Assembly: GCA_963971405.1 (NCBI GenBank)
Contig: OZ020487.1
Coordinates: 29,435,371 to 29,499,370 of the forward strand
Reading direction: 5' to 3'
Origin: Psococerastis gibbosa
Lineage: Eukaryota > Arthropoda > Insecta > Psocodea > Psocidae
Length of the DNA stretch: 64,000 bases
In this document: piece by piece, positions 6,474 to 59,116 of the stretch
How positions within the stretch are numbered: position 1 is the stretch's first letter
Layout: each line of letters starts with the position of its first letter
The notes under the pieces: model-generated
Databases searched by the model: none
The model's input: only the letters and a program-made list of their open reading frames with translations
Told to the model about the DNA's origin: nothing
Translations under genes and position numbers: made by a program

Positions 6474-6730
6474 ATTCCAATGACCTCGCATTGCAGAATA
6501 CAAGTGCATGACGTGGTAGCAGACATCATTAATAAGTCTCTGTCAGATTTTAACATAATTTATAATAGATAAGTTAAGTATGTAAGGAAGTAAGTAAGTT
6601 AAGTAAGGAAGACAACAACAAGTATCTACATTATAGTCTCCTTAAAATATGGCAGGGACTTATTAATGATGTCTGCTACCACGCCATGCACTTGCATTCT
6701 GCAATGCGAGGTCGGTGGAATATAGCCTAA
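6474..6730. mobile_element. foldback MITE related to the double-terminus family
   Basis: The arms (about 6474-6545 and 6655-6730) are inverted repeats containing 'gacctcgcattgcagaat', 'gacgtggtagcagacat' and 'cattaataagtc'. These words also form the arms of the elements at 36394, 45035 and 50649. Only one tier of termini is present here. The outer ends are eroded. Confidence 0.65.
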
Positions 6731-6740
6731 GGGCAAATTA

Positions 6741-7565
6741 CAACGGATTTCCGCCATGGGCAGGCGCACAGCTGGTGTAGAATGAATACTCTCGCAAATG
6801 ACTAGCAGTTCCATAACGCGCTATCGTTTCCATGAGTCATTTTACAATTCCTAACTGTTAGAAAAGGCTGCCATATTTAAGAAATGGCCAACCGCGAGGT
6901 GTAGAGGCCAGGCCTGGGGAACCTCCATACTATGCCACCCTGGTCCATGGGGTCAAAAATCATAAAAGAAACTTTGAGCATGAATAAATGCAAATTAAAT
7001 AATACTAATAATACATCAAATTATATTTATTAACGAAACTGCGATTTGAAACTTTGAAACGCAGTTAAGATAAAAGGTGTACCTAAATTTGTGCAAAACG
7101 AAAAAATGGCTCGAATTAAACTTATTATTGTAGTAAAAAAATGACTTAAAAACTCTTACTTCACAAAAACGATTTGTCATGAAACGGTAACGAGCTACAA
7201 AGACAGAACCCAACTTTGCGGGATAAGCAGGCATAAAATGAATATTATTCCAATTGACTCACTGTGACTTAAATTCGCCCACTGCAAAGATCTCATAACG
7301 CGTTCAGAAGAAGTTAAAAACAAAGTCAACCAGCATTAGCACAACTCATTCAAGCTCTGCTGCTCAGTGCATATGAGTAGTGCTCAGTTCACCGACTAAT
7401 AACTTATTTTACCCTAAAATCAGCCACTCTCCGCTTTTTTAATAAAATCCAATTTCACAGCAAAAATTGATCGTAGAGCCATAATTATCACCCTATGTAC
7501 ACGTCAGATGCTAAGCTGCTTATCTTGGTTACCAACTTACGCAGAGCCATTTTTGTCAGGCAAAC
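6741..7565. other. no recognisable gene
   Basis: AT-rich DNA. The open frame on the minus strand at 7016-7234 is low-complexity and lacks any family signature. Confidence 0.4.
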
Positions 7566-23730: not shown

Positions 23731-23754
23731 ATCAATTAATCGGTGTTAGAATAA

Positions 23755-24017
23755 ACAAAAAATAACAAAAACTTAGAGTTTTAGAAAAACTTGTTATAAC
23801 AACCCGAATTAGTAAAACCCAAATAATTATATTATATATAATAAATAATAATTATACTAACACAAGTGGGTTTCTTAGACAAAGTTAATTTCTTAACGAT
23901 TATTTGGGTTTTACTAATTCGGGTTGTTATAACAAGTTTTTCTAAAACTCTAAGTTTTTGTTATTTTTTGTTTATTAAAATGAAATACCACGAAGTCACG
24001 AGTAATCTAATTATTTA
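23755..24017. mobile_element. hairpin element with 78-bp perfect arms and 14-bp target duplication, copy 1
   Basis: Direct repeats cggtgttagaataa at 23741-23754 and 24018-24031 bracket the element. The arms 23750-23827 and 23899-23976 are a perfect inverted repeat, overlapping the left duplication by five bases. A right-hand extension ('ccacgaagtcacgagtaatc') is outside the hairpin and shared with the copy at 58680. There is no protein, TIR of known superfamily or tail. Long direct repeats suggest retroposition of a structured RNA or a foldback transposon. Confidence 0.75.
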
Positions 24018-24174
24018 CGGTGTTAGAATAATATATATATATATTGTATCAAAATGCGCAGGCGGAGAATTTCTTCTACGGCATGTCATATATTTTGACA
24101 TTGATATTTCATAAGATACATAAGATTTTCCCCCTCCCCCCCATATTATGCAGAGGCTTCAGTTATGTAAGTGT

Positions 24175-26832: not shown

Positions 26833-27642
26833 TATATCTGCCTGTCTTTTCCTGCTGTAACCATATCATTGGTCATGGCTTCATGGACATGGCAAAATCA
26901 AACCACATGAGAATTTTTCTCTGAATAATCCAAATTATGGCTACATTCAGAAGCCCGTATTCTCTAACATGATGCTTTACAGGGGCTATGTAATCCTGTC
27001 CCACTGCAGCAATGGAGATAGTACTGGACTTCCCACCCCTCCATGTTGCAGTGGAAACTTCTGCAGAAATGGCATTACTAGGAGTGGAAGGGCAATTAAG
27101 AGAGACTCAGCCTCTCTGACTACGTCTGACCACTGCCTGGATATGCCAAGCGATAGAATCCATCCAAAATACTGTTTTAGGAGGGAATTCGAAACTATAT
27201 TAGGGACAATGAAAGAATGCTGCGAATCAGCAGGAATTCTCAATAGTCACACAATCAAGTGGTATACTGATGGCTCTAGGCTAGGAAGTACCAAACCAAG
27301 AACAGGCCTTGGCGTCTTTGGTCCTGGGGTTAAATATCTGGAGTCTCTTAGGGAGACAACTATAGTCTTGCAGATTCTGCAATGAAGGTGCGGAGGACCT
27401 GCGATGCGATGCGATGCAATCGCACGAAGAAGAGCAGCATGCTCGGAAAGCTTGCAGTTACATGTAAAAGACCTACCACTTCTGAATCCCCTCAAGATCC
27501 TGGCTCTCGTGAGGGAGATAGGCCTCGAGAAAGTGATGTAGAAGTGATGTAGATACTTTGTTGTAGGGGGCACAATAGGCCAATAGGCTTAAGTGCACAC
27601 AGGTAACACCTGTACCCCAACTTATATAAAAAAAAAAAAAAA
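26833..27642 (+). mobile_element. degraded LINE 3' end with RNase H domain (I/R1/LOA-like)
   Basis: Across broken plus-strand frames I read the linker T-G-A-M...C-P-T-A-A-M-E-I-V-L-D-F-P-P-L-H. Next comes an RNase H start W-Y-T-D-G-S-R (the TDGS motif with the first catalytic Asp) followed by G-L-G-V-F-G-P. A C-x-x-C knuckle (27375-27395) and a conserved-looking C-terminus follow. A 16-18-base A run ends the element (27628-27645). Direct repeats aaccgtatata at 26822-26832 and 27643-27653 look like an 11-bp target duplication. Stops and frameshifts show it is dead. Confidence 0.8.
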
Positions 27643-58679: not shown

Positions 58680-58913
58680 ACAAAAAATAACAAAAACTTT
58701 TTACAGTTTTACAAAAACTTGTTATAACAACCCGAATTAGTAAAACCCAAATAATCGTTAAGAAATTAACTTTGTCTATAAGAAACCCACTGATTTGAGA
58801 CTTGCTCAACTTGAGGATAAGATGCAAATGTGCATTAGGTCTAATAAGTTTTTGTTATTTTTTGTTTATTAAAATAATGAAATGCCACGAAGTCACGAGT
58901 AATCTAATTATTT
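58680..58913. mobile_element. hairpin element, copy 2, 14-bp target duplication
   Basis: Direct repeats acggtttgaaataa at 58666-58679 and 58914-58927. It shares the left arm ('caacccgaattagtaaaacc') and the right extension ('ccacgaagtcacgagtaatc') with 23755-24017. Its right arm is only about 25 bp, and the inner segment 'cgttaagaaattaactttg' is next to the left arm rather than the right. Confidence 0.75.
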
Positions 58914-59116
58914 ACGGTTTGAAATAATAACTGAACCACAATGCAAAGTGCAGAAGTCAATTTTATTATTTAAAGGGGAGGAACCGTCAGGCAATGGCAA
59001 GCCTATACTGGCTTCTATTGTATTTATTATTTAGATAAGTGAAAGTAAATGAACGGACAGACCAATACTTTACAACTGGGTAATAATGGCAGTAAAGTAT
59101 GAATTATCCATAATTC

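Follow-up and report, generated by a model that had tools for sequence, protein, structure and literature searches.

The two hairpins in the window (the whole 64,000-nucleotide stretch of the Psococerastis gibbosa genome analysed here) are short insertions of an endonuclease-bearing Penelope-like element (PLE). They are very probably 5'-truncated insertions produced by paired, two-ended target-primed reverse transcription, each hairpin probably being a head-to-head pair of 5'-truncated cDNAs from one RNA region. The element is of a known kind, and its interest lies in what the ends say about PLE integration: many of its insertions are short and cleanly delimited, which allows both primings of a single insertion to be followed and competing models to be separated by sequence. 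Paired priming would explain the puzzling inverted shape of PLEs.

Anatomy of the window hairpins

Direct reading of the window returns the two hairpins of the original prediction (23755-24017 and 58680-58913), each between perfect 14-bp repeats (Table 1). The arms of copy 1 are perfect, with 0 differences over 78 positions; copy 2 has, as described, one full arm and a short stub, again with 0 differences over the 26 overlapping arm positions.

Part of each repeat is common to element and target. The first C of the repeat in copy 1, or the first AC in copy 2, is also the end of the tail, and the final AATAA matches element sequence outside the left arm in both copies, so the strictly duplicated core is 8 bp in copy 1 and 7 bp in copy 2. 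The original prediction had allowed that the sequence cggt...aataa might belong to the element itself; it is indeed partly shared with the element, but a duplicated core of 8 or 7 bp stays.

Copy 2 has the segment cgttaagaaattaactttg (element positions 139-121) in its left half, copy 1 in its right half. This placement had been read as an inversion of the loop between the arms, a step that is unneeded: the halves are unequally truncated, and each includes or omits the segment according to its own stop point. When microhomology is included, the left half of copy 1 covers element positions 43-120. The left half of copy 2 omits positions 155-242 (window junction 58791-58792), inside a stretch predicted to fold strongly; a template jump is the likely cause of the skip.

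Table 1. Parts of the two hairpins in window coordinates; element positions are counted from the 3' end.
Feature	Window position	Strand	Remark
Copy 1, left target duplication CGGTGTTAGAATAA	23741-23754		perfect 14-bp repeat by direct reading; final AATAA also matches element
Copy 1, left half, antisense element copy without tail	23755-23827	-	element positions ~48-120
Copy 1, AT-rich filler between halves	23828-23851		interval between element matches
Copy 1, right half, tail at end	23852-24018	+	element positions 167-1
Copy 1, tail, first 13 PLE ORF codons (ATGAAATACC...ATTATTTAC)	23980-24018	+	ORF continues in L017
Copy 1, right target duplication	24018-24031		first C common to tail end
Copy 2, left target duplication ACGGTTTGAAATAA	58666-58679		perfect 14-bp repeat by direct reading
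Copy 2, left half, first block	58680-58791	-	element positions ~48-154
Copy 2, left half, second block	58792-58832	-	element positions 243-283; ends at predicted transcription start
Copy 2, filler between halves	58833-58844		interval between element matches
Copy 2, right half, tail at end	58845-58915	+	element positions 68-1
Copy 2, tail	58877-58915	+	end of right half
Copy 2, right target duplication	58914-58927		AC common to tail end

Elsewhere in the window, positions 26861-27385 (+) hold a 174-aa open frame containing YTDGSRLG, which we take, by eye, to resemble the RNase H motif of a non-LTR element.

Copy collection and mapping

The source genome (409 Mb, 68 contigs) was searched at the DNA level with copy 1 as the query, and 40 of 220 candidates were scored. 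This search gave 87 matches at about 40 places, so the family occupies at least 40 places in the genome; most matches are confined to the right part of the query, with 96-100% identity. The 41 copies that were read comprise 20 places taken with about 5 kb of flanking sequence and 19 taken with about 0.6 kb, together with the two window copies, copy 2 being absent from the ~40 places of this search. All were mapped on a real copy (L028), with positions counted from the 3' end and the tail oriented to the right. Two arms are present in 31 of the 41 (30 in the first mapping, plus L046 after a further fetch). Statements on well-defined copies refer to 24 of these 30; L028, L029, L034, L036, L042 and L044 were dropped for mismatches, repeats below 9 bp or unclear starts.

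The parent element

Upstream of the right end of the hairpin, the element extends for 2.6-2.8 kb in its longest copies. Locus L012 carries an open frame of about 816-817 aa with a reverse transcriptase (RT) domain (RVT_1, 1.4e-14, residues 322-510) followed by a GIY-YIG endonuclease domain (4.5e-5, residues 689-741), both matches exceeding the Pfam cut-off; a PDB sequence search with this ORF gave a single weak RT match (9z6y_A, E 0.0016). L009, a copy of 1.1 kb, has a target duplication, an inverted left part, the 5'-truncated end of the ORF and the same right end. L017 has the direct order pLTR-ATG-ORF...pLTR, and its 5' part passes through ATGAAATACC...ATTATTTAC into the continuing ORF, from which it follows that the window copies carry, in the 39 nt past their ATG, the first 13 codons of the ORF, the "tail" of PLEs. 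The 3' end of L017 has no tail, and the ORF of L017 is broken between 6477 and 7289 by a stretch of ~0.8 kb (6478-7288) with a 137-aa frame on the minus strand (6493-6906). Direct pLTR-ORF-pLTR order was observed this once, while an antisense left half is present in 31 of the 41 copies.

The family thus shows these features of PLEs: an ORF with RT and GIY-YIG domains, a pseudo-LTR that includes the ORF start, a tail at one end whose 39 nt fall in the 30-40 nt range of the optional PLE tail, and variable duplications together with 5' truncation. A structured-RNA retroposon or a foldback element of unknown class had originally been suggested. Because the same ends are attached to the RT and GIY-YIG ORF, the hairpins are no new class but PLE insertions.

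Ends of the insertions

The tail (39 nt from the ATG) stands at exactly one end in all 31 two-armed copies and at both ends in none (0/31); since the query carried the tail, insertions without any tail are under-sampled, and the pattern speaks firmly only against a tail at both ends. The right half starts 39 nt inside the ORF. In all 24 well-defined copies the left half starts 4-9 nt before the ATG, at positions 43-48. Two-armed insertions read as two start sites about 45 nt apart on the RNA, one per cut. L046, two-armed, has its left start at position 75, and no clear duplication was seen there.

The ends and duplication lengths of further genomic copies, a check proposed by the original prediction, bear out its suggestion of target-primed retroposition: real target duplications of variable length are found across the family. 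In 29 of 30 two-armed copies the longest repeat shared by the two ends measures 8-14 bp, and in the remaining one 7 bp. Among 870 mispaired left/right controls, 2.3% reach 8 bp and none exceeds 10, so the repeats are not due to chance. Without ambiguous bases, the duplication cores measure 5-12 bp in the 24 well-defined copies.

Microhomology at the left end averages 1.92 nt, a value that none of 5000 permutations reached (permuted mean 0.85 nt). At the right end, 1-3 nt overlap the end of the tail in 20/24, a plain count, as permutation was applied at the left end only. The last target base at the right end is C in 18/21 copies (3/24 dropped for extra bases). Right ends read ATTTAT instead of ATTTAC in six copies (L030, L032, L034, L035, L037 and L045). 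In L030, L032 and L034, 1-6 extra bases precede the duplication and begin with G or GTT like the next bases of the ORF, as would result from an RT start displaced a few nt downstream.

One-armed copies make up 10 of the 41. Duplications are present in L022 (9 bp), L023 (13 bp), L026 (11 bp) and L039 (9 bp), and by eye in L017 (7 bp perfect, 10 bp with one mismatch); no clear duplication was found in L018, L037, L040, L041 and L043, of which L041 has an 8-mer.

Half lengths and 5' stops

The two halves of an insertion stop independently. Among 30 two-armed copies, the left half is longer by more than 10 nt in 7, the right half is longer in 15, and the two lie within 10 nt of each other in 8; the rank correlation between left and right half length is 0.32 (P 0.08). 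Stops span positions 68 to 2645, with unequal examples in L012 (2645 left, 1195 right) and L009 (168 left, 935 right). They cluster at 160-176 (19/70 halves) and 275-287 (10/70 halves), where the 70 halves exclude L017 and the left half of copy 2 is entered at 154.

Longer copies contain a TATATAA, and the stops at 280-283 fall 29-32 nt below its first T. This is the spacing expected of a polymerase II start, so halves ending there probably ran off the 5' end of the RNA, and positions 280-283 are the predicted cap site. The left half of copy 2 also ends at 283, beyond its skip. Most stops of the 160-176 cluster fall at 166-168, with no sure cause for the cluster; the RNA of this region has a strong predicted fold (z -3.1, 0/100 shuffles as good).

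About position 287, and with it the 5' UTR, is the limit of 25/40 right halves (without L017) and of 19/31 whole two-armed copies. RT starting at the beginning of the ORF should copy little beyond the 5' UTR unless the RNA has an upstream unit, which would account for tiny PLE copies. Many copies hold the 5' UTR only, hence the small hairpins.

The filler at head-to-head junctions is AT-rich (L029, L030, L032, L033, L035 and copy 1), and by eye it repeats pieces of TATACTAAC in several copies, as if made by short template switches.

Proposed mechanism of integration

Paired priming would begin with the GIY-YIG endonuclease cutting both strands roughly 8-14 nt apart and leaving 3' overhangs; overhangs at both cuts are expected because the target is duplicated and two ends are primed. 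Each overhang would pair, over a few nt at most, with element RNA near the ORF start and be extended by the element RT. The right end would start 39 nt inside the ORF, hence its tail, and the left end 4-9 nt before the ATG. Both cDNAs would grow towards the 5' end of the RNA, each with its own stop, often near 280-283 or 167, after which the two cDNA 3' ends would be joined head to head, often with short filler. For an insertion to extend into the ORF, the RNA would have to carry a further unit upstream. Strand-specific choice of the start and microhomology of the primer are, in this scheme, what the genomic ends point to. By analogy, the extension of both strands in vitro by a lizard PLE suggests that both cut ends can prime (PMC11167929).

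A comparison of shared variants between halves gave 3/50 discordant cells within insertions and 14% between insertions, from 4 informative sites only. In L012 the halves differ by a gap of 29 positions that is absent from all other fetched loci. Points against paired priming are the one-armed copies (10/41, five with no clear duplication), the near-equal halves (8/30), the start of L046 at position 75, the shorter duplications left once ambiguous bases are taken away, the stop cluster near 167, and two results on the lizard PLE, whose start site was the same on both strands and had no homology to the cut DNA (PMC11167929).

A more specific version, possible but doubtful, would account for the use of a different start site at each cut: an asymmetric dimer of the RT-endonuclease could hold one RNA molecule on which both target ends prime. 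Its leading RT would begin 4-9 nt upstream of the ATG; the trailing RT, starting 39 nt inside the ORF, would re-copy the template. If so, PLE integration would be a two-primer reaction, and the tail would reflect the spacing of two active sites along the RNA.

Alternative explanations

Snapback self-priming, in which one cDNA folds back and copies itself (from a sense or antisense template), would also yield an inverted arm; it has been inferred for rotifer PLEs from palindromes at inverted junctions (PMC3846280), and the near-equal halves of 8/30 copies are what it would produce. A snapback copy is never longer than its template, however, and the longer half lies on the left in 7/30 copies and on the right in 15/30, so neither direction of snapback serves all copies. 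Nor does snapback need a fixed left start 4-9 nt before the ATG with microhomology to the target. The length data exclude it as the only route; it is possible for the 8 copies with equal halves, and as the general explanation it is quite unlikely.

The twin priming known from L1 has the same geometry of two primed ends, an inverted left part and target duplications, the second target end priming upstream on the same RNA to give an inverted, non-overlapping 5' part. In L1 twin priming the two parts are not known to overlap, nor is the second priming place known to be fixed. The halves here have up to 1151 aligned positions in common (L012), and the left start lies in a fixed stretch. The overlap rules out the plain form, and twin priming is altogether highly improbable as the source of these insertions, although priming of this kind on one RNA may have occurred with re-use of the template. 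Inverted arms and flanking duplications are likewise what a DNA transposon, MITE or foldback element with terminal inverted repeats would show. The arms are not terminal (one end has a further 42-47 nt in 24/24 well-defined copies), the aligned length of the left arm runs from 36 to 2649 bp, the duplication is not of fixed length (7-14 bp), and the attached ORF encodes RT and GIY-YIG domains; these features refute such an origin, which is left with practically no likelihood.

Very unlikely, too, is a retrozyme-like origin from hammerhead-processed templates, under which the stops at ~167-173 mark a ribozyme cut and the short copies derive from cleaved RNA. In PLEs a minimal type I hammerhead is a common but dispensable part of the pLTR. 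Minimal type I hammerheads have been reported in PLE pseudo-LTRs (PMC7761336). The 5' UTR here holds a motif resembling one, with a predicted cut at 173, where the one-armed unit L017 (AGGG) and likewise the right half of L033 begin. Only 2/3000 shuffles match the descriptor, which was defined after the sequence was seen. One core base is off (CTGTAGA, not CTGANGA), and most cluster stops lie at 166-168, not at 173. As read in L009 (positions 208-170), the motif is CCCT CTGTAGA T GGCAGTTCTTGCC GAAA GCGCTC AGGG, with a palindromic GCGC in place of stem III. Five loci had no Rfam match at the gathering level, and a 521-base stretch had no hammerhead with the E-value threshold; an exact CTGANGA...GAAA was found in L009 only outside the element.

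Comparison with known systems

Paired priming shares with L1 twin priming the use of both cut ends as primers on element RNA, the inverted 5' part and the target duplications; it differs in the overlap of the halves and in the fixed stretch of the left start. As a source of inverted pLTRs it has no account that could be found in the excerpted texts of PMC11167929, PMC3846280, PMC7761336, PMC7229834 and PMC12910113. In the excerpted main text of the first of these, "inverted" occurs once, for a blocked DNA end, and is not linked to the inverted shape.

According to the excerpted account of the rotifer Adineta vaga, its Penelope elements with pLTRs (e.g. Pen2a_Av) have an ORF with RT and GIY-YIG domains, an optional 31-bp tail on one pLTR that overlaps the ORF start, and duplications of 8-10 bp; inverted pLTRs carry one tail, and self-priming on an antisense template is proposed (PMC3846280). 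The present family shares the ORF composition and the one-end tail overlapping the ORF start. It differs in the length of the tail (39 nt), in repeats of up to 14 bp, in the 19/31 two-armed copies that stop by ~287 and in direct order seen once (L017).

Poseidon_Ac (PAc) of Anolis carolinensis provides a close biochemical parallel: its protein cuts and extends both strands in vitro, and RT starts internally at two adjacent sites whose spacing equals the genomic tail. The main start lies 111-118 nt into the ORF, is described as lacking homology to the cut DNA and is the same on both strands; PAc also has a protein-assisted hammerhead (PMC11167929, excerpted text). The present family likewise has two start sites separated by the tail, here read from genomic ends. 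Unlike those of PAc, its starts lie 4-9 nt before and 39 nt after the first base of the ATG and show microhomology; the choice of start appears strand-specific, and only a near-miss hammerhead motif is present.
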